Source: Candidatus Kapaibacterium sp. (GTDB lineage: Bacteria; Bacteroidota; Ignavibacteria; Kapaibacteriales; WFXC01). From it: DNA of 53,266 nucleotides. A program made the position numbers and the translations under genes. The stretch covers positions 1-53,266 of the forward strand of contig JALWJX010000045.1 of the NCBI GenBank assembly GCA_026996895.1, written 5' to 3'. The notes under the pieces were generated by a model. That model was not told the origin of the DNA and ran no database searches. It saw only the letters and a list, made by a program, of their open reading frames with translations. Below, piece by piece: positions 1,934-53,266 of the stretch; position 1 is the stretch's first letter, and each line of letters starts with the position of its first letter.

Positions 1934-2729
1934 TGTGTTTGCTCCCGTCCGCTCTGGTTGCTTCCGCTGACGTGTTTTTCTGAGCGACGATGATAACCCG
2001 TGGAGAGCGTTCCGGATGGTATGGCGTTCCGTCGTAGTCACCGAAGGTGCGGCGGATGTGGAGACCAACGGCTGCGAAGAGTTGCTGAAAATCGCTGAGG
2101 GTGTATAGCCGGACTCGCTCTTCAAACTGATGGTGAGCACCTTCGGAATCGCGGATGTGAATTGTTTTCCGCAGCCATTTGCCATTGACCGACCGGGTTT
2201 GAATGATGTGGAGGTTTGCAATGACCCGCTCATCCCGGTGTCGCAACGTGCGGAGCGTGTAGGGGACGTTCAGGTAGTCGAAGAAAAAGATTCCTCCTGG
2301 GCGGAGTGCCGCTGCAACGTTTTTGAGTACCTGCAAATCTTCATCGGAAGTCTCGAAGTAGCCGAAGGAAGTGAAGAGGTTGAGAATGGCATCATACGGA
2401 GCGTCAGGGAACGGAAGGCGCATATCCTGCTGAACCAATCGCAGGTTGGGCAGCGTAGCACCCTGGTGTTGGGCATACTGCAACAGGGTTGTGGAAATAT
2501 CCAGTCCGGTAACATTGAAGCCTGCCTGTGCCAGTGGAATAGCGTGGCGACCGGTTCCACAGCATAGATCCAGAATCTTTGCACCGGGCGGTAGCGGACA
2601 GGTTTCGAGGAAAAGCTGGACCGCAACCGCCGCCTCTGCCTGATCCCGATGCTGATAGACCAGCGGGTAAAAATGAGAATTAAACCAGTGTTGAAACCAC
2701 TCTCGTCGTCGTTGCTGCTGTCGCCTCAT
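1911..2729 (-). CDS. Class I SAM-dependent methyltransferase
   Basis: A 272-residue protein with the Rossmann-type methyltransferase core. Motif I is 'ILDLCCGTGRHA' (residues about 55-66); an acidic residue follows in 'VTGLDIS', and motif IV is 'DAILNLFTSFGYF'. The family is Methyltransf_25/11; these methylate small molecules or proteins, and the substrate cannot be inferred here. The N-terminus is Arg/Gln-rich with 'WFNSHFYPLVYQHRD', commonly seen in this subgroup. Its start overlaps the recR stop by four bases (ATGA), and its 3' end overlaps the lipoprotein gene, so it is a middle gene of a compact operon. The C-terminal 20 residues are hydrophilic and probably disordered. Confidence 0.85.
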   Translation of the reverse strand: MRRQQQRRREWFQHWFNSHFYPLVYQHRDQAEAAVAVQLFLETCPLPPGAKILDLCCGTGRHAIPLAQAGFNVTGLDISTTLLQYAQHQGATLPNLRLVQQDMRLPFPDAPYDAILNLFTSFGYFETSDEDLQVLKNVAAALRPGGIFFFDYLNVPYTLRTLRHRDERVIANLHIIQTRSVNGKWLRKTIHIRDSEGAHHQFEERVRLYTLSDFQQLFAAVGLHIRRTFGDYDGTPYHPERSPRVIIVAQKNTSAEATRADGSKHNADSQEH

Positions 2730-3322
2730 AGCGGAACTCGCCCCTGGAGTGCTCGAGCGATGGTTTCTTCATCAGCGTATTCCAGCTCACTGCCAATGGG
2801 AACGCCTCTGGCAATGCGGGTGACGGTAATGTTCAACGGTTTGATCAGTCGGGAAAGGTATTGCGCCGTCACTTCCCCTTCGACTGTGGGGTTGAGTGCT
2901 AAGATGACTTCCTTCACGTTCTCATCGAGGCGTGCCAGCAACTCCTTGATTTTCAAATCTTCCGGCCCAATGCCTTCCAGCGGATTCAGCGTGCCGTGCA
3001 GCACGTGGTACAATCCAGAAAATTCGTGGGTGCTTTCGATCACTACCACATCGCTGGGCGATTCCACAACGCAGATCACCGACCGATTGCGGCGCGGGGA
3101 GGCACAGATTGCGCAGGGATCGGTGTCCGTGAAGTTGTAGCAGGTGGAGCAGAGTTGGACTTTTTCTGTCAGCGCCAGCAATGCGCTGGCGATTGTTTCA
3201 ACTGTTTCTTTCGGCTCGCGGAGCAGAAAGAACACCAATCGCTGCGCTGTTTTGCGCCCAATGGTTGGCAGCAGGGTCAGTGCTTCGATCGCTCGCTCGA
3301 TGGTTTCGGAGGCGAATGTCAT
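2726..3322 (-). CDS. recR: Recombination mediator protein RecR
   Basis: RecR works with RecO (and RecF) to load RecA on single-stranded DNA at gaps. The protein is 198 residues from the ATG at 3320-3322, the usual family length; a longer frame to 3397 adds a Cys/His-rich tail that overlaps ybaB and is not expected. Visible in order are an N-terminal helix-hairpin-helix ('LLPTIGRKTAQRL'), a C4 zinc finger ('CSTC' ... 'CAIC'), a TOPRIM domain beginning 'VICVVESPSDVVVIE', and the conserved C-terminal 'TRIARGVPIGSELEYADEET'. It lies directly after ybaB, the classical ybaB-recR pairing seen in many bacteria. Confidence 0.95.
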   Translation of the reverse strand: MTFASETIERAIEALTLLPTIGRKTAQRLVFFLLREPKETVETIASALLALTEKVQLCSTCYNFTDTDPCAICASPRRNRSVICVVESPSDVVVIESTHEFSGLYHVLHGTLNPLEGIGPEDLKIKELLARLDENVKEVILALNPTVEGEVTAQYLSRLIKPLNITVTRIARGVPIGSELEYADEETIARALQGRVPL

Positions 3323-3350
3323 CGTTGCCAGACAGCTCAGTTGATCTTTG

Positions 3351-3680
3351 TTATGCCAGCGGTGGCAGCATTGACCGCAATGGACCCAGAAAGCCAAACT
3401 GATCTTCGGACATTTTTTGCACCGCTTCTGCTGTTTTCTGCTGCGTAATGTTCACCGCAGCGATCACCAAATCTTCCAGCATCTTTTTGTTTTCTGGTGA
3501 CAGCAGAGATGGGTCGATGTCGAGCCGAACCAACTGGAAATTCCCGTTCATTGCCGCTTTTACCATTCCGCCGCCGGCTTCGCCTTCGATCACCAGCGAA
3601 GCCAGTTTGCTTTTGAGCTCTTCCAGTTTGCTCTGGAATTGCTCAAACATTCCCATCGGATCCGAAACATTCAGTTGCAT
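3351..3680 (-). CDS. ybaB: YbaB/EbfC family nucleoid-associated protein
   Basis: A 109-residue DNA-binding protein of the YbaB/EbfC family, which dimerises and coats DNA. Seen in the sequence: an N-terminal coiled coil 'MFEQFQSKLEELKSKLAS', the hallmark 'GEAGGGMVKAAMNGNFQLVRLDIDP' region, and a C-terminal helix 'LEDLVIAAVNITQQKTAEAVQ'. The ATG at 3678-3680 is chosen because AAAGGAAAAG lies just upstream; ATGs at residues 9 and 11 are alternatives. It is the first gene of a minus-strand operon with recR 28 bases downstream. The 111-base gap to pspA, which runs the other way, should hold both promoters. Confidence 0.93.
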   Translation of the reverse strand: MQLNVSDPMGMFEQFQSKLEELKSKLASLVIEGEAGGGMVKAAMNGNFQLVRLDIDPSLLSPENKKMLEDLVIAAVNITQQKTAEAVQKMSEDQFGFLGPLRSMLPPLA

Positions 3681-3791: not shown

Positions 3792-4490
3792 ATGAGCATC
3801 TTCAAGCGCATTGCCGACGTGATCAAGGCAAATGTGAATGATCTTCTGGACAAGGCAGAAGATCCGGAGAAAATGATCAAGCAGATGGTCATTGAGATGG
3901 AAGAGGCGGTAAACAAGGCGACCTTAGCTTTAGGCAATGCTATAGCGAATGAGCGGTCGCTGGAGCGGAAGATTCAGGCGGCACAGCGGAAGGCGCAGGA
4001 ATGGGAGCAGAAGGCGATTCAGGCGCTGAATGCGGGAAGGGAAGATCTGGCACGAGCAGCGCTGGAGAAGAAAAAACTCTATGAGCGGCAGGTGCTGGAT
4101 CTCCAGTCAGCATACGAGCAGGCACGCCAGACGACGATGAAGCTGCGGGAGCAGGTGAATCGGCTCAAAGCAAAACTGGAGGAAGCGCGAACCCGCCAGT
4201 CGACCTTGATTGCCCGATCGCAGGCAGCAAAGGCGCAGAAGCAAATTGCGCAAGCCTTCAGCGGTGTTGGGTCGGATGCTTTCTCCAAGTTTGAAAAATT
4301 CGAGCAGAAGATCGAAAAACTGGAAGCAGAGGCAGAGGCATTCGAGGAGCTGAGCGGAGAAACGGTCGGCATAGAGGATGAATTTCGCAAGCTGGAGCTG
4401 GGCAGTTCCGTTGATGCAGAGTTGTTGGCGTTAAAACAGAAGCTGGGGAAACTACCGCCGTCTGAAACTTCTTCCGAAACAGGTCAATAA
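3792..4490 (+). CDS. pspA: PspA/IM30 (Vipp1) family membrane-protecting protein
   Basis: A 232-residue protein that is almost entirely coiled coil after an amphipathic N-terminus 'MSIFKRIADVIKANVNDLLDKAEDPEKMI', the signature of PspA/IM30/Vipp1. These form rings and rods on the inner face of the cytoplasmic membrane and counter membrane damage (ESCRT-III-like fold). A GAAAGGGG ribosome-binding site precedes the ATG. No PspF-like regulator or PspB/C is present nearby, so regulation differs from the enterobacterial system. It is followed 18 bases later by a YbjN-like gene, probably in one transcript. Confidence 0.92.
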   Translation: MSIFKRIADVIKANVNDLLDKAEDPEKMIKQMVIEMEEAVNKATLALGNAIANERSLERKIQAAQRKAQEWEQKAIQALNAGREDLARAALEKKKLYERQVLDLQSAYEQARQTTMKLREQVNRLKAKLEEARTRQSTLIARSQAAKAQKQIAQAFSGVGSDAFSKFEKFEQKIEKLEAEAEAFEELSGETVGIEDEFRKLELGSSVDAELLALKQKLGKLPPSETSSETGQ

Positions 4491-5031: not shown

Positions 5032-6510
5032 ATGGTGAGCTACACGGAATCGGCTATTGTCGACGCCTATAGCCGAGACGCTTCCAATTATCCGGATGGG
5101 CGGGCTGAGGCAGTCTGGATTCCCCAGTCGGTTGAAGAGCTCATCGAGGCGGTCCGCGAGTGCATCGATCGGAATCAACCATTGACCCTTTCAGCAGGAC
5201 GCACCGGGTTGACAGCCGCAGCGGTGCCGGAAGGTGGAGTGCTGATTTCTGTGGAACGGTTGAACCGGTTTGCGCTCCATCAGACCGGGGAAACGGCGTG
5301 GGTGTGGAGCGAGCCGGGAGTGGTGCTGCGGGAACTCCAGCAGTCAGTCGAAGCGCAGGGGTGGTTTTATCCCCCGGATCCAACGGAACGCAGCTCTCAG
5401 ATCGGCGGGAACATTGCAACGAATGCCTCCGGAGCCCGAACGTTCAAATATGGGGCAACCCGTTCCTATGTGTGTCGACTCCGTATGCTGTTGGGCGATG
5501 GGGAAATTCTGGATCTGCGGCGCGGGCAGTTTCGGGCGCAGCAGGGAACGCTGCGGATTGAGTCGGAAAGCGGGCGGTGCTATGCCGTCCCCATTCGCCC
5601 TATTCCGATGCCGGCTGTGTCGAAACACGCCGCCGGATTGTTTGTACAGCCGGGGATGGATGCGATCGACCTGTTCATTGGCAGTGAAGGGATTTTAGGG
5701 GTGATTCTGGAAGCGGAACTTCAGGTGATTCCATTGCCACCGAAAGTGTTCGGATTGGTGGCGTTCTTTGACTCGGTCGAAGGATGCCTGGACTTCGTGG
5801 AGCAGGCGCGGCATCGGTCGTACCAGACGCGGCGGTCGGGTGGTGGAGACATTGATGCCCGATTGCTGGAGTTTCTGGATCGTCCGTCGCTGGAGTTGGT
5901 ACGATCACAGTTCCCGGAATTCCACCCGGAGGCGGAAGCAGCAATCTGGCTGGAGCAGGAGTGTACCGAAGCAACAGCAATGCCATTGCTGGAACAGTGG
6001 TATGAGCTCATCGCGCAGCACAGCGCTCTGGCAGATGCGACGTGGGTGGGGCTGGATGCACAGCAGCAGGAGCGTATGCAGCGGCTGCGGCACGCCGTTT
6101 CCGAAGCCGTGTATGAGCGCATTTGTGCGCTGAAACAGACAAAAATTGGAACGGATATGGCAGTGCCTGAATCCTATACCCGGCAACTGTACTTCCTGTA
6201 TCGCCAACTAGCAGACCGCCATAGGCTGGAAGCGGTGATCTATGGGCACATTGGCAATGCGCATCTGCACGCAAATTTTTTTGTTGGCTCAGAGGCAGAA
6301 CGCCATCGTGCCCGGTGCGCGTACGATGAAGCAGTGGCACAGGTATTGCGGTGGGGTGGTACTATTTCCGCCGAGCACGGGGTGGGCAAATTGAAGAAAC
6401 GGTACTTGCAGCAGATGTTCGGTACAGAGGTTGTGGATTATTTTCGTCGTATAAAGCGCGTATTCGATCCGAAGTGGTTGATCAATCCTGGCACAATGAT
6501 AGACAGATAA
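5032..6510 (+). CDS. GlcD-type FAD-binding oxidase (glycolate / D-lactate / 2-hydroxyacid dehydrogenase)
   Basis: About 492 residues. The family oxidises 2-hydroxyacids such as glycolate or D-lactate with FAD. An N-terminal PCMH/FAD_binding_4 domain shows 'LTLSAGRTGLTAAAVPEGGVLI' and 'SQIGGNIATNASGARTFKYG'; the C-terminal FAD-oxidase domain carries the metal-site pattern 'GHIGNAHLHANF' and 'SAEHGVGKLKK', then 'KRVFDPKWLINPG'. The start is uncertain: ATG 5032 is taken, but TTG 5020 and GTG 5035 are in frame and no strong ribosome-binding site is seen. No GlcE/GlcF or iron-sulfur partner is adjacent, so it is a stand-alone form and the electron acceptor is unknown. It ends 28 bases before the 2-oxoglutarate dehydrogenase gene. 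Confidence 0.85.
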   Translation: MVSYTESAIVDAYSRDASNYPDGRAEAVWIPQSVEELIEAVRECIDRNQPLTLSAGRTGLTAAAVPEGGVLISVERLNRFALHQTGETAWVWSEPGVVLRELQQSVEAQGWFYPPDPTERSSQIGGNIATNASGARTFKYGATRSYVCRLRMLLGDGEILDLRRGQFRAQQGTLRIESESGRCYAVPIRPIPMPAVSKHAAGLFVQPGMDAIDLFIGSEGILGVILEAELQVIPLPPKVFGLVAFFDSVEGCLDFVEQARHRSYQTRRSGGGDIDARLLEFLDRPSLELVRSQFPEFHPEAEAAIWLEQECTEATAMPLLEQWYELIAQHSALADATWVGLDAQQQERMQRLRHAVSEAVYERICALKQTKIGTDMAVPESYTRQLYFLYRQLADRHRLEAVIYGHIGNAHLHANFFVGSEAERHRARCAYDEAVAQVLRWGGTISAEHGVGKLKKRYLQQMFGTEVVDYFRRIKRVFDPKWLINPGTMIDR

Positions 6511-6538
6511 AGTTTTCCGGCTAAGTGGAGAAAAAACG

Positions 6539-9500
6539 ATGGTTGACCTGAATCAAGCCTACGTCGAGGAGCTGTTTTTTGATTACCTCAAAGATCCCGA
6601 ATCCGTATCGCCGTCGTGGCGCCGGTACTTTCAGGAGCATCAGCAGGAAATTCAGCAATGGCTGGAGGCAGAGCAGCGACCGCTGTGGCTTCCACAGTTG
6701 CAGTCGCCAGAGCCAAAATCTGACGGGGAGCAGCAGGCAACAGCTCCTGCAGTGGCTCCGGTGGAAGTGACGCCGCAGAAAGAGAAGGCAGAGGAGCAGG
6801 TGAAAGCGCCTCCAGCGGCTGCAAGGGTCGAGGAAGAATTTCCTCCGGTACCGATCGGACCTGAGGATCAGTTGCTTCCGCTGCGCGGCATTCAGAGCCG
6901 GATTGCTGAGAATATGAATACCAGTCTGAAAGTGCCGACGGCAACGTCAGTCCGAACGTTACCAGTGAAAGTGCTGGACGAAAACCGCCAGTTGTTGAAC
7001 GCTTTCTTGGTACGCAAAGGGCAATCAAAGTTGAGCTTCACCCATTTGATCGGATGGGCGCTGATCAAAGCGCTCAAAAAGTATCCGCGACTCAATGATG
7101 CCTTTACGGTTGTGGATGGTAAACCCTATCGGGTCGTCCGTTCATCGATCAATCTGGGATTAGCCGTTGATCTGGTCCGTCCAGATGGGAGTCGAACCTT
7201 AGTGGTGCCGAATGTGAAGGGTGCAGAGAAACTCTCGTTCAAGCAATTTGTGGAAGCGTACAATACGCTGATCCGGAAAGCACGGGACAATGCGCTGGAA
7301 CTGGATAGCTTGCTGGGCACGACCGTGACGTTGACCAATCCGGGAATGATTGGAACGGTGATGTCCATTCCCCGGTTGATGTGGGGTCAGGGGTTGATTT
7401 TCGCTACCGGTGCCATCACGTATCCGGCAGAATACAGCGGGGTGACGCAGCGAACCTTAGCGACAATGGCGGTTGGTAAGGTGATGACCGTCACCAGTAC
7501 CTACGACCATCGGATTATTCAGGGAGCGGAGTCGGGCGAGTTCTTGCAGTACTTTCACCGATTGATTCTGGGCGAAGAAGGATTTTACGAAGAAATTTTT
7601 CACGATCTTGGCGTCCCGTTTCGCCCGTGGCGGTGGAGTGAAGATCGGCTAGTGGTGTCGCTGTTTCAGGATTACAAAGAGTTGTCCGAACGTGAAGCAC
7701 GGGTTCGAGAGTTGATCAATGCTTACCGGGTGCGAGGACATCTGTATGCAGACATCAATCCATTGCGCTATAGTTTTGAGACCCATCCAGAGCTGGAGCC
7801 GTCCTCGTACGGTTTCACGATCTGGGATCTGGATCGAGAGTTTAACGCGGGAGACTTAGCGGATCTGGGACGTGCGCCGCTGCGGGACATTCTGGCAGTG
7901 CTCCGGGATCGCTACTGCGGTACCCTGGGCATTGAGTACAAGCATATGCAGGAGCCGGAGAAAAAGGAATGGGTGCAGCGACGCATTGAGAATCGGGAGG
8001 GAAAATTTACTTTTACGCCGGAAGAGAAGAAGCGCATTTTGCAAAAGTTGATCGATGCGGATAGTCTTGAGCAGTTTCTCCACACGCGATTTATTGGGCA
8101 TAAGCGATTTTCACTGGAAGGAGGGGAGTCGCTGATTCCACTGCTGGATTTCCTGTTCGACGCTGCGTCAACCAGGGGATTGCAAGAAGTGTATCTGGGG
8201 ATGGCGCACCGTGGACGGTTGAACGTGATGGTCAACATTATCGGCATGCCAGCCGAGCGGATCTTTCGCGAATTTCAGGGCGATCTGGATCCGGAGTCGT
8301 TCTACGGCGCTGGTGATGTGAAATACCATCTGGGTGGGAAAGGAGTCTTTCACGGTCAGGGCGGAGCAGTGCAGATTACCTTAGCAGCCAATCCCAGCCA
8401 TCTGGAATCGGTTAATCCAGTGGTAGAAGGGATGGCACGGGCACGGATTGATGAGTTGCAGGATCCGTCAGGAAATCACGTGCTGCCCGTGCTGATCCAC
8501 GGCGATGCTGCCTTTGCCGGACAGGGCGTGGTGGCAGAAACCCTGAATTTGTCGAAAGTTCGTGCCTACCATACCGGCGGAACGATTCACATCATCATCA
8601 ACAATCAGATTGGGTTTACCACCTCTCCTGAAGAAGCCCGCTCGACGGTGTATGCAACCGATTTAGCGAAGATGTTGCAGGTTCCCATTCTGCACGTCAA
8701 TGGCAATGATCCGGAAGCAGTGGTTGCCGCAGCCCTCTTTGCCCTGGAGTACCGCCAGACCTTCCACGAGGATGTGGTCATCGATATGTTCTGCTATCGG
8801 AAATACGGGCATAACGAAGCGGACGAGCCGAGCTACACGCAGCCACTGCTGTACAAGATCATCAATCAGATGACGCCGGTGTGGAAGTTGTATAGTGGCA
8901 AGCTGCAAAGAGAAAAAATTCTGGACGAAGCTGCCATTGCGGCGTTATACAAAGAGGCGCAGCAACGATGGCAGAAAGCGTACGATCAGGTATCTGCCCG
9001 GAAAGTGGATGTGCATCAACTGCTCCAGCAGCGGCAGACCGCCGATCTATTCCAGCCGGTATCGACAGCAGTGGATGCGGCAACCCTGCGCTTGATTGCC
9101 GAAAAAATCACTACTTTGCCGGAGCATTTCACCCTGCATCCAAAATTGAAGCGTTTTCTGGAGCATCGGCGGCAATCGGTGCTGGACGGTAAGGGGATTG
9201 ATTGGGCAACGGGTGAGGCGCTGGCTTTTGGATCCCTTCTGCTGGAAAAGCATCGCATTCGGATGTCGGGACAGGATTCGGTTCGTGGAACTTTTAGCCA
9301 GCGGCACGCCGCCTTTGTGGACTACGAAACCGGAGAGGAATACATTCCGCTCAACCATATAAAACCCGGAGAGCAGGAGCAGTTGCATATTTATGACAGT
9401 ACCCTTTCGGAGTTTGCCGTGCTGGGCTTTGAATACGGCTACAGCCTGCAGAATCTGGAAGGTTTGACGTTGTGGGAGGCGCAATTTGGCGACTTTGCCA

Positions 9501-46414: not shown

Positions 46415-46501
46415 GTTTGCGGGGGCGGTAGGGAACCTGGACGGTCGGAGTAGGCTGAGGCGCTGTGCATATAGCAGCGCTGTGTTTCTCCGTGTCGCAC
46501 C

Positions 46502-46553
46502 GGGAGCGCACGCTTCAGTGTCCATCTTTGCCGACTAAAGTCGGCGCTCCCAG
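46502..46553. repeat. 52-base cloverleaf-like palindromic repeat, copy 1
   Basis: The outer arms GGGAGCGC and GCGCTCCC at the two ends pair perfectly. Inside are a short CAC...GTG hairpin with loop GCTTCA and a second hairpin GCCGACT-AA-AGTCGGC. Read as single strand it folds as a three-way junction. By position it is about 81% identical to copy 2 (42 of 52 bases, my hand alignment). Confidence 0.7.
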
Positions 46554-46586
46554 CCGGCGCTCCCAGTGAGACGTTCCCAGTTTGCT

Positions 46587-46638
46587 GGGAGCGCACATTT
46601 CAGTGTGCAACGATGCCGACGAAAGTCGCTGCTTCCAG
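46587..46638. repeat. 52-base cloverleaf-like palindromic repeat, copy 2
   Basis: Same order of arms as copy 1: GGGAGCGC at the start, GCACA-TTTCAG-TGTGC as first inner hairpin, CGAC-GAAA-GTCG as second, and a decayed closing arm GCTGCTTCC. The changes mostly keep or partly compensate the inner stems, while the outer arm has decayed. Confidence 0.65.
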
Positions 46639-46674
46639 AGGATGTTTCCGGTAGCGGTGCCATTCTGCAATCTT

Positions 46675-47079
46675 TTACCGTCGCGTGTCTTCTTTGCAGA
46701 GATCCTGGCACCGGGGATACGGGCGGAACTGGATGAAATCAAAGAGGCGGGAGATAGTGCCGTCGGCATTGCGAACGATTTTTCGGTGTGTGGTGGCAGT
46801 GACCACTGAAATTCCAGCCTGCTGGAGCAGGGCAGCCAGGGCGAAGCAGAACGTCAGTTCGCCGGCAAGATGTACGGCGACAGCATCTTTGCTGGTGCGC
46901 TGGAGATAGCGACATTGCTGCAGATATTTCCTTGCCAGTTCAACGACCTGCTCCGTACGCCAGTGGGGATCGATCGATGGAAAAGGGAGATCAACAACTT
47001 CGCCAAATTGTTCCAGTGCAGCGATGCGCTGCGTCTCGCTCCACTCTGCAAAGGGATGATTCGAAAGGTTAATGAGCAT
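46675..47079 (-). CDS. Small type III CRISPR-associated protein, candidate CARF-like / ring-nuclease-like
   Basis: A 134-residue cytoplasmic protein starting directly after the csm5 stop (TAA then ATG), the last gene of the operon. It opens with a buried strand and turn, 'MLINLSNHPFAEW', then 'GEVVDLPFPSIDP', a helix 'VVELARKYLQQC', and a core 'AVAVHLAGELTFCFALAALLQQAGISVVTATTHRKI', ending 'FDFIQFRPYPRC'. The strand-helix alternation fits a small Rossmann-like fold such as CARF or the ring nucleases (Csx15/Csx16/Csx20 kind). I recall related small proteins of unknown function in this phylum but cannot name a family with certainty. Being fused in expression to a GGDD-bearing Csm complex, it may bind or degrade cyclic oligoadenylate (inference). 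Confidence 0.6.
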   Translation of the reverse strand: MLINLSNHPFAEWSETQRIAALEQFGEVVDLPFPSIDPHWRTEQVVELARKYLQQCRYLQRTSKDAVAVHLAGELTFCFALAALLQQAGISVVTATTHRKIVRNADGTISRLFDFIQFRPYPRCQDLCKEDTRR

Positions 47080-48261
47080 TTAGTCGTGTCCCATCCGTTC
47101 CAGCAACACCCATCCCAGGACGCTGACGGGTTCCATTCTTTCCGTGCAGACGATCTTGTGCGTTTTGGGAAAGGGCGCTCCACGGCTGCCAAGTGTAAAC
47201 TGAAAACGAATGCGCTTAAATTGCTCTGGAACTGTCTTTGCGATGGCGCCGGTGATGCTGTCCCATCCGATGCCCCAGCCGAGGCGGAGAATGCAGCGAC
47301 GGGTTGTTTCTTGCTGAGAGGGAAAGTGGACGGCAACATCCTCGTGGAGCATAGCGAGAAAGCCTGTTTTGGTGGCGTTGGAAACAGCGTTGAGAAAGGA
47401 GACGCACTGTTTCAGAAATTCGGTTTCGAGTTTATACATTCTTCGAGCGTGAGCGTTCAGCATCTGGAATAATTCCCCGATGGAAGTGGGAAAGCCGTTG
47501 CGCTGGAGTTTTCTTCCGTTCCCGGCGCCAATGGTGGGATCCAGTCGAAGCATAAAGGTGGCTTCTACGTCCTGTGCCAGCAGTTCAGGATAGATGACCG
47601 TATCTTTCGGCAAAGAGTCTCGACCCCTGGGGCGCTTATCCTTCATCCATTGGCAGTCGGAGGGCTGCTGAGGTTTCAGAGATTTCAGTTCCAGAGATTT
47701 CACCGGGTACAGATCCAGGTCTTCCCGAGCAAAGCGTGCATCGCCAACAATCAGGGTGCGGAACAGATCCCTGTTTTGTTTTGATCCGGCATAGTTTCGG
47801 TCAGTAGTGAGCAACTGTGCTTCGATTTCCTGTGCAGCGGATTTTCTTCCGTTTTTCTGGACTGTTTGCAGCAACTCTGATTGCTGACGTGGTTGGAGAT
47901 GGTGAAACAGTTGGCTGAGAACCGCCGTGCGGATAGCTCCTTTGATGGACGATCCGGGGATATAGGGAACGCCATCGGGAGTTTTGATGAATTCCAGAAT
48001 TTCACTGGTCGTACACGGTGTTTCGTAACGCTGGATCCGTGGATCGCGCAACTGCTGGATCTGTTCCAGTGGGAAGCGTCCCTGATCCAGTTGGAAACGG
48101 TGCTCAGGATGGGTCTGGTAATACGCAAGAATCACTGGCAATGGGACAATATACGTGCTGGTTGCTGTTGTGAAGAAGTCAAACCCTTTTGTCAGCTTAT
48201 TCCCGCTGCCGATGTGGACCGGTGTTAGAATACGGATTCGGATCTTTTCAGCTTTCTGCAT
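47080..48261 (-). CDS. csm5: Csm5, type III-A RAMP protein
   Basis: A 393-residue RAMP that caps the crRNA 3' side of the Csm complex. The N-terminal RRM-like start 'IRIRILTPVHIGSGNKLTKGFDFF' and the RAMP motif 'GVPYIPGSSIKGAIRTAVLSQLF' (about 97-115) are typical of Csm5. Later are 'FRTLIVGDARFAREDLDLYPV' and 'RLGWGIGWDSITGAI', the glycine-rich C-terminal loop. Its start overlaps the csm4 end by 14 bases. The length agrees with the family. It is followed without a gap by the small 134-residue gene. Confidence 0.92.
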   Translation of the reverse strand: MQKAEKIRIRILTPVHIGSGNKLTKGFDFFTTATSTYIVPLPVILAYYQTHPEHRFQLDQGRFPLEQIQQLRDPRIQRYETPCTTSEILEFIKTPDGVPYIPGSSIKGAIRTAVLSQLFHHLQPRQQSELLQTVQKNGRKSAAQEIEAQLLTTDRNYAGSKQNRDLFRTLIVGDARFAREDLDLYPVKSLELKSLKPQQPSDCQWMKDKRPRGRDSLPKDTVIYPELLAQDVEATFMLRLDPTIGAGNGRKLQRNGFPTSIGELFQMLNAHARRMYKLETEFLKQCVSFLNAVSNATKTGFLAMLHEDVAVHFPSQQETTRRCILRLGWGIGWDSITGAIAKTVPEQFKRIRFQFTLGSRGAPFPKTHKIVCTERMEPVSVLGWVLLERMGHD

Positions 48262-49333
48262 TTGCCCACTCCTCTGGTAGTTGCAGAAACAGCGACTGGA
48301 AATTGCGAATCACTGGCGAATTTAGAGGATCCATCGCAGGGGCGATCTGCCCCGATGGAATAATGGGCTCGGAGAAGGATAGGGTGGCGCCTTCGAGAAA
48401 AGCGCGCATGGGACGTCGCCGTTGGTCGCGATAGCGAGCACACCAGATCCATCCCCGCCGGAGGGTCAGGGTGTAGTACGATGCTGGAGGTTTCAGGCAA
48501 CGGAGCTCTTCCGCCGTAGGCATATACAGTCCGAGATTGCACCATACGGTATGTGATGTCTCTGCTGCAATGAGCAAGGGACCCTTATAGGGTTCTTTCT
48601 GCCACTGAAACCATCCTTTCCCAACGGTACGGTCAGCACCGATTCCCTCATCTGCCAGGAGTGCCAGGGCGGCATCAAAGCGCTGTTGGACTTCTTCGGT
48701 GTCAAACGTTGCCCAGAAGAAGAGTCGGGATCGGGCGTGATGGACTTCTGTGAAATAGAACACATTGCTGCCAGCGGTAATGCGGTCAATCGTCACGCGG
48801 GGACGTTCAGCCGTATGCTGGAGCACAATGGGAGAATGGTCTTCAGATTGCTTGCTGTGCTGCGGAGGACGCTGGAACGCAGTACGCAGCTTCGCTGCTG
48901 TTTCACGGGGTAAAAGGCAGTTGCCAAGAACGTCGGCGCTGGAAAGCACCTTTGTTAGGGGGTCTCCAGGATTTTGGAGCATCTGCGCCAGCAAAGGTTC
49001 AGCGATAAATCGAATCTGCTTCCGCTGCTTGAGCGGCAAAGCATCATTCGCATCATAGGAATACAACAGTTGATACCGGAGGGAAGCGGGAAGTGGTAAA
49101 CATCGGATCGAGCCGATCAACGGCGCTGTGGAGCTGAGCCGGAATGGCAATGTCGATTGCTGCAACAGTTCTTCCAGCGCAGCATCGCCAAATAGCAGTG
49201 CGTATGCGGAGAGAAGAGCGCCGCTGAGCGTGTCGGATGCGATTTTCGCCTCCGTCCGGTTTTCCTGAAAGCCGCCGGAGGAGACGTGATAGCCGTGGGG
49301 AAACTGTAACGAGTAACACCAGAGTGCACCCAT
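48248..49333 (-). CDS. csm4: Csm4, type III-A RAMP protein
   Basis: About 361 residues. Csm4 binds the crRNA 5' tag and contacts Csm1. The ATG at 49333 has AGGG eight bases upstream; ATG 49339 is an alternative and the longer frame overlaps csm3. Seen: 'SDTLSGALLSAYALLFGDAALEELL' near the N-terminus, as in Csm4 ('lhSDTLfgAL'), 'RVTIDRITAGSNVFYFTEVHHARSRLFFWA', and 'ALALLADEGIGADRTVGKGWF', the glycine-rich RAMP loop. Weak overall conservation is normal for Csm4. It lies in the middle of the operon. Confidence 0.9.
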   Translation of the reverse strand: MGALWCYSLQFPHGYHVSSGGFQENRTEAKIASDTLSGALLSAYALLFGDAALEELLQQSTLPFRLSSTAPLIGSIRCLPLPASLRYQLLYSYDANDALPLKQRKQIRFIAEPLLAQMLQNPGDPLTKVLSSADVLGNCLLPRETAAKLRTAFQRPPQHSKQSEDHSPIVLQHTAERPRVTIDRITAGSNVFYFTEVHHARSRLFFWATFDTEEVQQRFDAALALLADEGIGADRTVGKGWFQWQKEPYKGPLLIAAETSHTVWCNLGLYMPTAEELRCLKPPASYYTLTLRRGWIWCARYRDQRRRPMRAFLEGATLSFSEPIIPSGQIAPAMDPLNSPVIRNFQSLFLQLPEEWANAES

Positions 49334-49343
49334 TTCCATTGCC

Positions 49344-50171
49344 CTACGCTGTTGCTTCGGATGCAGGATTGGCACTTTCAGCTTCTTGTTCCTCTGGATG
49401 CTTCCGCAGAGACCGGGGGACTGAATTTTCCGGGAGCGAACGCCACGCTTCGTTTAATTGCTGGTAGTCTTCGGCAGTTTTTTCTTCCACCGCGAGGATT
49501 TTGATCGATACGTGCCCACTTCCGCGAGAACCGGAGCCACCCAGGTAATCATCCTGCAACAGCTCAAAGGCTGTCCACAGTAGATCGAGGTATTCCTGAA
49601 CATTATCGCCTTCAAAGACGTTCAGGATGCAGGTGAACTCGAACTCTGCGCCGCTGGGAACTCGTTCCAGCGAACGAGGATTTGCCGCAGCAGTAATGCG
49701 GTCAATCGCTGTTTCTGCTTTGATTTCCGAGTATGGTAGATCCGTGTCGGCATTGCTCAGCCACTTGCGGGATTCCTGCGTAAGGTAAGCGTCGCGGACA
49801 ATCAGGCGAGAGGTTGGCTGTGCTTCTGCTTTTGCCTTTTTCAGTACTTCCGGCGTTGTGCCGAAAAGCAGGGTGCCGACAAAGTCCGGTTTAAGATAAG
49901 GTCCAACTTGAATGTTGGTACTGCCTTTTCCTTTCTCTTTCTGATCAAATTTGCCATTGAGCCGTTCCACCAAGGAGCGGAGTTTTCCTTTGAGCGAAGA
50001 GCCGGGGATGAAAGGTTCCTGCGTGATGGGATGCCGGAGAATGGGATTATCAACCCCGCCGATTTCCAGTCCACCGCCAGATCCGCCGATGTGCAACCCG
50101 GTAAGCAGCTTAATCGTGCCACGAATCCGAATTTTCTTTTCCAGTTTTCCCGTTTGCTGAACGTTTGCCAT
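49344..50171 (-). CDS. csm3: Csm3, type III-A RAMP ribonuclease
   Basis: A 275-residue backbone subunit that cuts target RNA every six nucleotides. It begins 'IRIRGTIKLLTGLHIGGSGGGLEIGGVDNPILR': the Asp in 'GGVDNP' corresponds to the catalytic Asp of Csm3 (Asp33 in the Streptococcus protein). 'FIPGSSLKGKLRSLVER' is the RAMP signature, 'KAETAIDRITAAANPRSLERVPSGAEFEF' a Csm3 hallmark, and 'DDYLGGSGSRGSGHVSI' the glycine-rich loop. A Glu/Ala-rich tail of about 25 residues extends past the fold. AAAGGAAG lies before the ATG. Confidence 0.95.
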   Translation of the reverse strand: MANVQQTGKLEKKIRIRGTIKLLTGLHIGGSGGGLEIGGVDNPILRHPITQEPFIPGSSLKGKLRSLVERLNGKFDQKEKGKGSTNIQVGPYLKPDFVGTLLFGTTPEVLKKAKAEAQPTSRLIVRDAYLTQESRKWLSNADTDLPYSEIKAETAIDRITAAANPRSLERVPSGAEFEFTCILNVFEGDNVQEYLDLLWTAFELLQDDYLGGSGSRGSGHVSIKILAVEEKTAEDYQQLNEAWRSLPENSVPRSLRKHPEEQEAESANPASEATA

Positions 50172-50173
50172 GG

Positions 50174-50632
50174 CTACTTCCTTTTATGTTGTTTTACACT
50201 TTCGTAGTATTTGAAGTAAGCAAGGACAGCTTCAAATAATTGAACAAAGTTGAGAAACATTGTTTGTTTTTTTTGATCGGAGGTTTCTTCAACGATGAGA
50301 TCAACAATGGAGGAAATAAGCTTATCGAGTTTCGCATTTCTAATTTCTGAATGTCGCCCTGCTAAATAGGCAATACGTGGTTTCATCATTAACAATTTGA
50401 GTTCCCAGTCATTGGAGAAATTGTCACTCCGAATCTGGAGCTCCAAGTCTTTGAGTGTGCCAAAGATTTTCCGAATCTGGGAACTACTTGCTTTTTTTAG
50501 TTTTAATTGTTCCCCTTGACCATTGGCGAACTCCAATGCATCTTTGTTAAATTGCTCAAGCCATTGGTAAAGTATCTTTTTGGATGGAATTTCCCATTGC
50601 TCTTGCTGTTGGGCTTTCGATTTGCTACTCAT
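50174..50632 (-). CDS. csm2: Csm2, type III-A small subunit
   Basis: A 152-residue, mostly helical small subunit that lines the Csm complex along the crRNA/target duplex. The ATG at 50632 overlaps the csm1 stop by one base (TGATG) and has GGAGA upstream. Seen: 'SSQIRKIFGTLKDLELQI' and 'MMKPRIAYLAGRH', both typical of Csm2 (TIGR01870-type), then 'LDKLISSIVDLI' and 'FVQLFEAVLAYFKYYES'. The N-terminal 30 residues are Gln/Lys-rich. Its base composition is clearly more AT-rich than the other csm genes. Confidence 0.9.
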   Translation of the reverse strand: MSSKSKAQQQEQWEIPSKKILYQWLEQFNKDALEFANGQGEQLKLKKASSSQIRKIFGTLKDLELQIRSDNFSNDWELKLLMMKPRIAYLAGRHSEIRNAKLDKLISSIVDLIVEETSDQKKQTMFLNFVQLFEAVLAYFKYYESVKQHKRK

Positions 50633-53112
50633 CAGGATTCTCCTCTTGTATAACTCACTGTCCATTGAGCTGCCAGGTAATATATGTCGAATTTTCCGGC
50701 GCCCCCTGCGGTTTCGGGGTTGACGAAGACATTTGCTGCCAGTTTCTGGATGAAGCTCCGTGCTTCGTTATCGGAAAGGCGTTCAGCCAGTCGTGCCAGA
50801 TGATAGGCGCCCCGCCATTGCCAGGGACCGGGGGCGAAGTGTTGCCGCTTGCCAGCGCGGTACAGTTCGATCAGGCGATGCAGAAAGCTCCGGGGAAGAA
50901 TGTTTTGCTTTACCCACTGGATCCATTGGGAGGTAATCTTCCGGGCGGTTGCAAAATCCTGCCAGTCCAGGGTAACGTCGAAGAAGGTAATCGCATCTTT
51001 GGCCCTACCATTTGCCCGCTCGAAATGCTTCGCTGCTTCTTCCGCTTCCTGCGCAAGCTGCGCTGCCCGGAAAATGGGGAATTTATCATCGAACAGCGCA
51101 ATGCCTCCGGAAATGCTCAGGCGGGGGTGGTGTCCGGTGAATTCCCGAAAACGTTCCCGAATCCACAGTGCAACGTCGGGAAGAATTTGCCACGGACCGA
51201 CGAGGAAAAGGTCATCGCCACCGGCGTAGACAATCAGCAGGGCTCCGGGGAGCGGGGTGCATTTGGATTCCGAAGCTCTTTCTACAATGCCATCGCGCAG
51301 CGACCAGAAGAGCCCTCCGAGACGATTCAGGTAGCTGCTGAAGAAAAAGTCCAGCATTGCCGAAAGCTGCATCATTCGGGAAAATGTAGCAGCCGTGCCG
51401 AAGCCGTGGGCAAAAATGCTTCCCAGGTTGTCCACATCCATCCGCAGCACTGCCAGCCGCTTCAATCCCTGCGCGTGTTCCTGAACGAGATCTGTAAAAT
51501 CCAACGGTTTTCGTGATCGTGTTTGCGGTGCCCACGTTCCAGCATAAAATCGCCAGCCGGTAAGGTGCGGATTGTCCAGAAATCGATCATCGTTGAAAAG
51601 CTGAACCAGTTCGGCATCGCGAAGTCGGGGATCTGTGAGTTTCTGCGGTATTGCTACCCACCACCGACCGGGACGAATTTCGACGCTATCAGGCAGTGGG
51701 GTGCGGGCAAAAGCGATGGCGCGAGGATGGGAGCGCAGAAGATACCCCAGCCGCTGTGCCCGCTCCTGCTCTGGTGCCACTGTTATGGTTTCTTCGTTTC
51801 CATCTTCGGAAACTTCCAGCAGTTGGCTTCCCACGTGCTTGCCGTCAACAAAGATGTGCTTGACCCTTAAGGGACCGATGGGTTCTCCTTTCTGGATCTG
51901 CACCGGTTGATCTGTAGAGTACAAATCTCGATTGGTAGCTTCGCACCGTTTTGTGTATCCAAATGGAGCAGAGGGGTTCAGGAAGAAATCCATCGAGCGG
52001 ATGGTTGTTGCAAAAGCGCGAAGCTGCTCCCGTTTGGCATCAGCGATCGCACGTCCCCATAACCGGGCAACCGTTGCTGGATTCTGGAGATCACCATCGG
52101 TAAAAGCAGTGGTACCAATGGAGAGTCCAAGCACGGCGTCAAATTCATCAGCGAAGAACTGTTCCGTATCTTCCCGAACGGCACGCAGTACTTGCCGTGC
52201 CTTTTCCGTATTCGGAAGAAGCAAGAAAAATTTTCCGCCACCGGAGTACAATAAATTGGCAAGGGAGTGATCCAACCGCTCCAGAATGTCCATTGCAACG
52301 ATTTCCGTGAGCAGTTGGAGCAGGAAGGATCGCCCTTTCAGCGCTTTTGCCGCCCCTTTATAGCTGATGTCGTACAGATAGCTCTGGATACCGGAGAGAT
52401 CGCCAACCGCCAGTATGTAGCGTTCTGTATCGGAACGATCGATCGGCTCATCAGAATGGAAGTGCAGGTAATCGTAGAGCGCTACAGCCAGCGCAGCCGT
52501 TAGTTTGGAGTGTTCGTAGAGAGAAACGTCGGGCATATAGTACGCAGCAGGAACGCACCACAGGTATTTGCGAAGGAAGAACAAGAGTCGGTTTCTGGAA
52601 AGAGGAGCGTCCTGAGCTAAGGATTGAATCTCGCTTTCCATTTGCTGGAGGTGAGCGCTGTATTGCTTCTGAAGGTGCTGGGCATCGGGAGCGGTGGAAA
52701 TTGGGAATTCGTATGCTTCAGGTGTCAGGGAGCACAGCGGCTGATAGCTTTGAGAGGCTTCGTCCTGATACAGAGTGCTGAAGATCGAATGCTGGAGCTG
52801 GAGTTTTCCGGTGTGGGAATGCTGACGCTCCGCTGCGGCTAAGGAATCCGCTCGGTGAATGATGGCGGCAAGCCGTTCCAGCGATGCCGGAATTGCCTCC
52901 GTCCGCTGATGATGGGTTTCGATGAGTGTCAGTAGTTGCTGCAGTTGCTCTTCGGAAAGAAAGGGGGCAAAAATGCGGTGGGCTAACCGGGCAGAAAGCA
53001 GCTCGTGTACTTGCTGGAATCCCGTGGCGCGTTGCGGCAGCTTCCCGATATCGTGAAACAGGGCTGCATAGAACAGCAAGTCGCGTTCCGAGAGTTGCAG
53101 TTGTTGGCTCAT
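50632..53112 (-). CDS. csm1: Csm1 (Cas10), type III-A signature protein with HD and GGDD
   Basis: 826 residues from ATG 53112 (GGGA eight bases upstream; ATG 53127 has none). The N-terminal HD nuclease motif is 'ALFHDIGKLPQRA' (His20, Asp21), expected to cut single-stranded DNA during transcription. The first Palm region follows 'ILAVGDLSGIQSYLYDISYKGAAKALKGRSFLL', a Cas10 hallmark. The cyclase motif 'IVYAGGDDLFLVG' (GGDD at about 631-634) is intact, so cyclic oligoadenylate synthesis is expected. Other hallmarks are 'RLAVLRMDVDNLGSIFAHGF' and 'SISGGIALFDDKFPI'. It is the first gene in the operon; about 150 bases lie upstream to the window edge, holding its promoter. Confidence 0.96.
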   Translation of the reverse strand: MSQQLQLSERDLLFYAALFHDIGKLPQRATGFQQVHELLSARLAHRIFAPFLSEEQLQQLLTLIETHHQRTEAIPASLERLAAIIHRADSLAAAERQHSHTGKLQLQHSIFSTLYQDEASQSYQPLCSLTPEAYEFPISTAPDAQHLQKQYSAHLQQMESEIQSLAQDAPLSRNRLLFFLRKYLWCVPAAYYMPDVSLYEHSKLTAALAVALYDYLHFHSDEPIDRSDTERYILAVGDLSGIQSYLYDISYKGAAKALKGRSFLLQLLTEIVAMDILERLDHSLANLLYSGGGKFFLLLPNTEKARQVLRAVREDTEQFFADEFDAVLGLSIGTTAFTDGDLQNPATVARLWGRAIADAKREQLRAFATTIRSMDFFLNPSAPFGYTKRCEATNRDLYSTDQPVQIQKGEPIGPLRVKHIFVDGKHVGSQLLEVSEDGNEETITVAPEQERAQRLGYLLRSHPRAIAFARTPLPDSVEIRPGRWWVAIPQKLTDPRLRDAELVQLFNDDRFLDNPHLTGWRFYAGTWAPQTRSRKPLDFTDLVQEHAQGLKRLAVLRMDVDNLGSIFAHGFGTAATFSRMMQLSAMLDFFFSSYLNRLGGLFWSLRDGIVERASESKCTPLPGALLIVYAGGDDLFLVGPWQILPDVALWIRERFREFTGHHPRLSISGGIALFDDKFPIFRAAQLAQEAEEAAKHFERANGRAKDAITFFDVTLDWQDFATARKITSQWIQWVKQNILPRSFLHRLIELYRAGKRQHFAPGPWQWRGAYHLARLAERLSDNEARSFIQKLAANVFVNPETAGGAGKFDIYYLAAQWTVSYTRGES

Positions 53113-53266
53113 TCTGTATCCCGTCATTTTGTATGAATCAGCAGCGTTCGTTGCGTAAATGGCAGCTTGATGTAATGATGGGTGTTCCCGTAATTGCCCA
53201 TTGCGGAAATTCTTAAAAGGCGGTAGAGCGACTCTGACGGTAGCTGGCGGCGCAATAGAAGATTGA

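Follow-up and report, generated by a model that had tools for sequence, protein, structure and literature searches.

A csx20 gene at the end of a type III-A CRISPR operon in Candidatus Kapaibacterium encodes a candidate CARF-like ring nuclease

Introduction

What is the small gene that directly follows csm5 in a CRISPR operon of an uncultured Kapaibacterium, and what might it contribute to type III signalling? The window analysed here is a 53,266-nt stretch of contig JALWJX010000045.1 (assembly GCA_026996895.1). The original prediction, made from these letters, described a Rossmann-like protein that would be a new cyclic oligoadenylate (cOA)-binding or ring-nuclease protein. From its profile matches, the 134-residue ORF is csx20, a member of a named family (PDLC01397, NF040559). 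We consider it highly probable (roughly 0.88) that its product would act as a CARF-like homodimer that binds and cuts the cyclic tetra-adenylate (cA4) of the Cas10 of its own operon and damps Csx1.

Results

The csx20 ORF lies where it had been predicted, at 46675-47079 on the minus strand, with an ATG start and a length of 134 aa. On the same strand, csm5 (47080..48261; Cas7-like, the complex cap) ends in a TAA that abuts the csx20 ATG, and is preceded by csm4 (48248..49375; Cas5-like), which overlaps it by 14 nt, csm3 (49344..50171; Cas7 backbone), csm2 (50174..50665; small subunit) and cas10/csm1 (50632..53127), each of the five with a PADLOC match. The first gene of the operon, also on the minus strand, is CARF5/NE0113 (PF09623), of which the 3´ end is in the window (53124..53266); the complete gene (G000:C45:53124-54230; L038:7125-8231) extends past it and overlaps cas10 by 4 nt. 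All adjacent gene pairs overlap or are at most 2 nt apart (carf5/cas10 -4, cas10/csm2 -34, csm2/csm3 +2, csm3/csm4 -32, csm4/csm5 -14 and csm5/csx20 0 nt), and the junction ...GAC TAA/ATG CTC confirms that csx20 begins directly after the csm5 stop. Cas10/Csm1 has an HD motif at residue 25 and keeps GGDD at residues 636-639, as had been noted, and is expected to be the source of cOA.

Orthologues with 89-92% identity are found in two other Candidatus Kapaibacterium genomes. Between the window genome and the first of these (G001), csx20 has 88.8% amino acid identity, dS 0.274, dN 0.051 and dN/dS 0.185 (~0.19); partial comparisons with the second sister (G002) extend the orthologue range of dN/dS to 0.03-0.28, similar to csm3, cas10 and carf5. 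The low dN/dS among orthologues, together with the placement in the operon, marks csx20 as a real gene held by selection, and the same range combined with the presence of the family in 28 genomes out of a sample of 395 from the phylum shows that the ORF is not a chance one. We conclude that csx20 is under purifying selection. An ORF on the opposite strand (46870-47472, plus) that covers csx20 is without support, and an apparent csx20 pseudogene in G002 was ruled out, as the break there corresponds to 10 consecutive N in the assembled sequence. Downstream of csx20, at 46500-46640, the window contains short repeats of the GCCGACTAAAGTCGG / CTCCCAGCCGGCG type. Several blastn pieces place copies of them in other parts of these genomes, and they probably represent an intergenic repeat family.

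The family assignment is carried by the PADLOC Csx20 model PDLC01397, which matches residues 1-121 over positions 1-114 of 114 (E 1.8e-36) and is likewise matched by 16/16 aligned homologues; a new-family identity is ruled out by this full-length match and its recurrence in the homologues. The C-terminal part of the PADLOC CARF-HEPN-CSX20 fusion model (PDLC01843; E 7.9e-19) and the joint Csx15/20 model (E 2.9e-16) also match. The NCBIfam Csx20 model NF040559 gives 24.1 bits (E 3.8e-5) against an equivalog cut-off of 70 bits, which is the naming threshold of one library. All 16 homologues match NF040559 at E <= 0.01 (best E 7.6e-14), and since they match the Csx20 models of both libraries, the window protein appears to belong to a Csx20 branch far from NF040559. 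As the whole branch is covered by PADLOC, we read the missed threshold as reflecting the reach of NF040559 and not membership, and this distance may be the reason why annotated relatives are named "hypothetical protein" or "CRISPR-associated protein".

Other searches were less informative. Searched as a single sequence, the ORF gave nothing useful in Pfam or among PDB chains, and a profile search of PDB sequences was equally unproductive; by these measures, Csx20 is without a solved relative detectable by sequence. Models of Crn1, Crn2 (AcrIII-1) and Crn3 (Csx3) were not among the Pfam, NCBIfam or PADLOC matches of the ORF, and a weak hit (E 0.043) to a PurC-type model was dismissed as chance. 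The HEPN motif R-x4-6-H is absent from the 134 aa, which rules out a HEPN effector and agrees with the proposal that the protein is not Csm6 or the effector itself. The proposed novelty did not survive: the family had already been named Csx20 and predicted earlier, and its degradation of cA4 was shown in 2025 (PMC12409355). A role as regulator or degrader of the messenger, on the other hand, is supported by homology, given a ring-nuclease-type family, a type III-A operon and an active-looking Cas10.

A confident AlphaFold2 model (five sequences; pLDDT 90.5, pTM 0.81) has a CARF-like fold. Strands 2-6, 28-30 and 68-72 alternate with helices 15-25, 42-62 and 75-87, then comes a closing hairpin of strands 91-103 and 109-120, and the last residues are of low confidence. 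It is a predicted five-stranded sheet with flanking helices, a derived CARF/Rossmann fold; CARF differs from the classical Rossmann fold in that a reverse turn replaces the last helical crossover (PMC13148439). Foldseek places mainly CARF/SAVED cyclic-nucleotide binders as best PDB neighbours: Cam1 bound to cA6 or cA4, apo Cam1, Csm6 and the Crn1 protein Sso2081 with cA4 are among the top nine, and SAVED proteins (Cap4/Cap5 SAVED), among others, appear further down. With E-values of 8e-4 to 7e-3 and TM scores of only 0.3-0.46 to CARF proteins, the match is a family-level resemblance and not a close superposition. Sso2081 is also the reported DALI match of a Csx20 model (PMC12409355). The anticipated Rossmann-like fold is thus borne out by the model and the top of the Foldseek list, at modest TM, and the outcome that was to count against it, a fold unrelated to CARF, was not observed. 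The motifs singled out in the original prediction are all present: "LINLSNHP" forms strand 1 and the following loop and the core motif HLAGELTFCFALAALLQQAGI a strand and helix, while "TATTHR", described as a turn, lies instead inside the long strand 91-103 of the hairpin.

In an alignment of 27 sequences, the best-conserved positions include N4, S6, N7, H8, P9, W13, Q17, P34, P38, G73, E74, T96, R99, F113, F118, R119 and Y121. In the model, S6-N7-H8-P9 is the loop after strand 1, G73-E74 follows strand 3, and R99 and R119 are in strands 4 and 5, respectively. From its position in the sequence, the S6-N7-H8-P9 loop is likely to be the catalytic loop. H70 is a weaker candidate site residue because five of the aligned sequences have Leu at this position. 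One alternative is that the protein is a sponge, which would bind cA4 and keep it from the effectors but leave it uncut, as has been reported for orphan PfCsx15. Members of the neighbouring Csx15 family that only sequester cA4 are known (PMC13148439), and the match to the joint Csx15/20 model fits such a relationship, but an assayed Csx20 fully degraded cA4 (PMC12409355) and the S-N-H of the loop is retained in nearly all homologues, so that we regard a pure sponge as improbable and favour cleavage.

The genomic context was sampled at 26 homologue loci outside the genus, found by searching csx20 alone; the counts describe the linkage of csx20 to type III and come without a background rate. In 17 of the 26, a cas10/csm core gene shares the contig with csx20 at a distance of no more than 20 kb: 16 have it within the fetched stretch, and in one (G107) Cas10 is 19 kb off. 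This is the neighbourhood count that had been proposed as a check, and homologues were not mostly away from type III loci. The remaining nine include two short contigs on which csx1 adjoins (L057, L060), three short or contig-edge pieces (L047, L054, L063) and four loci with no type III genes nearby (L058, L061, L062, L064), three of which carry the most divergent sequences. The divergent homologues at L061, L062 and L064 (G402, G231 and G071) have no Cas10 in the neighbourhood, and a search with PF22335 found none anywhere in G402 and G231.

The most frequent touching partner of csx20 is csx1, a CARF-HEPN ribonuclease gene, which it abuts or is fused to in 10 of the 26 loci. One locus (L043) encodes a natural CARF-HEPN-Csx20 fusion of 578 aa, covered from end to end by the CARF-HEPN-CSX20 model, and on Runella and Rhodothermus plasmids csx20 overlaps a csx2 (TIGR02221) gene. 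Such repeated adjacency of csx20 and csx1 across different families is not expected of random gene order. An Aureispira plasmid has cmr genes followed by csx20, and of the other genera sampled, just one (L055) has csx20 after csm5 rather than csx1. The gapless position behind csm5 would also suit a non-enzymatic or unrelated Rossmann protein, e.g. a structural accessory of the Csm complex. We find this hardly credible in view of the full-length Csx20 match, the linkage and fusion to CARF-HEPN effectors and the CARF-type structural neighbours.

Relatives of csx20 were also seen on IMG/VR viral contigs (L076:6001-6357, L077:6001-6420 and L083:4001-4432), among phage-type genes (by eye, RecT-like, DNA methyltransferase and SSB); a tblastn search of phage records found none. 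These viral relatives are consistent with the report of Csx20 in four phage genomes (PMC12409355), and an anti-CRISPR use is possible.

The host genome has only one full Cas10, and three TIGR02221/Csx1 genes on other contigs. All three match CARF-HEPN profiles and have R-x4-6-H motifs at the C-terminal end, and two of the genes form a row with cas6. A GGDD Cas10, Csx1 genes and csx20 together supply the messenger source, sensors and off-switch, the sensors being encoded in trans. Cas6 was found with another model than PF10040, which found nothing in the genome; PF09670 had no match in the genome and none in controls either, so that its silence does not demonstrate absence. On another contig (L090; G000:C100), neighbouring genes at 2321-3433, 5890-7065 and 7058-8251 have C-terminal parts that weakly match CARF-PDDEXK nuclease models, and one place on the contig exceeds the Card1 endonuclease cut-off. 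The CARF5/NE0113 protein carries the NCBIfam name "ring nuclease Csm6" (TIGR02584). Its C-terminal half aligns across genera, looks winged-helix-like by eye and contains no convincing HEPN motif.

The presence of CARF5 at the head of the operon raises the possibility that Csx20 degrades cA3, cA5 or cA6 and is paired with this protein rather than with Csx1. CARF5 is near csx20 in 8 of the 26 loci, its relatives include a CARF-ADA model, and with much enzyme present the assayed Csx20 degraded cA3 as well (PMC12409355). That same protein is a cA4-specific ring nuclease by preference, however, ring nucleases in effector-bearing loci are found only alongside cA4 effectors (PMC12409355), and no partner touches csx20 as often as csx1. 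A different ring as the main substrate therefore seems very unlikely, and cA4 remains the probable one.

In sister genome G001 (WFXC01000037.1), ~5.76 kb is gone, from within csm1 (after ~80 codons) to the last codons of csm5. The site is at 2994-4787 of L005 (G001:C37; = L036), with the junction near 4335-4339 and no N at the joint, and both a real loss and a misjoin in this metagenome assembly are possible. In G001, carf5 and csx20 are intact on either side of the missing stretch, cas6 and two Csx1 genes are kept, and no other Cas10 was found in the genome. The intact csx20 and CARF5 would be in keeping with a guard that works by itself against cyclic oligoadenylates of other origin. That csx20, CARF5 and the unlinked Csx1 work partly apart from their own Csm complex in this Kapaibacterium genus nevertheless strikes us as unlikely.

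Discussion

In the mechanism that we favour, the GGDD Cas10 of the operon would make cA4, which would be bound by a CARF-like Csx20 homodimer and cut to linear products. Added metal would not be needed; the published Csx20 assay held EDTA (PMC12409355). The loss of cA4 would then switch off the cA4-activated Csx1 (CARF-HEPN) ribonucleases encoded elsewhere, or damp leakage into them. Cleavage may proceed through in-line attack by the 2´-OH, as proposed for Crn1, where the loop after strand 1 is catalytically important (PMC10018336). The S6-N7-H8-P9 loop would hold the scissile phosphate by analogy with Ser11 of Crn1 and His13 of Csx15, the latter being the catalytic residue of that protein (PMC13148439), and G73/E74, R99 and R119 would be further conserved site residues. 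Dimerisation, binding and cleavage of cA4, the roles of these residues and the role in vivo are what we infer for the window Csx20 from its characterised relatives.

The window csx20 appears to be an ordinary off-switch gene and opens no new class of mechanism. Its interest is that it places a known type III CRISPR signalling off-switch in an uncultured Kapaibacterium lineage, in an operon that keeps the ring nuclease together with the Csm complex, the Csx1 effectors being encoded elsewhere with cas6, and that the alignment indicates residues worth mutating.

With the Csx20 family, the window protein has in common the full-length profile match, the fold class and the linkage to type III and Csx1. 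It differs in scoring below the curated NF040559 cut-off (24 vs 70 bits), in an extra 13-residue low-confidence C-terminal tail relative to the family core, and in its placement after csm5 instead of csx1. The CARF-HEPN-Csx20 fusion effectors (PDLC01843) have a C-terminal domain of the same family, whereas here Csx20 is a separate protein, with Csx1 encoded on other contigs. Crn1 (Sso2081, PDB 7YGH) has the CARF-type fold in common and ranks in the top ten of the PDB fold search, but the window ORF has no sequence match to Crn1 models, is shorter, is without an equivalent of the C-terminal helical lid and has the near-invariant H8 beside the loop serine. Csx15 is likewise a small CARF-like protein and has Ser/His in the loop that follows strand 1; it forms head-to-tail filaments on cA4, and some of its members only sequester the messenger (PMC13148439).
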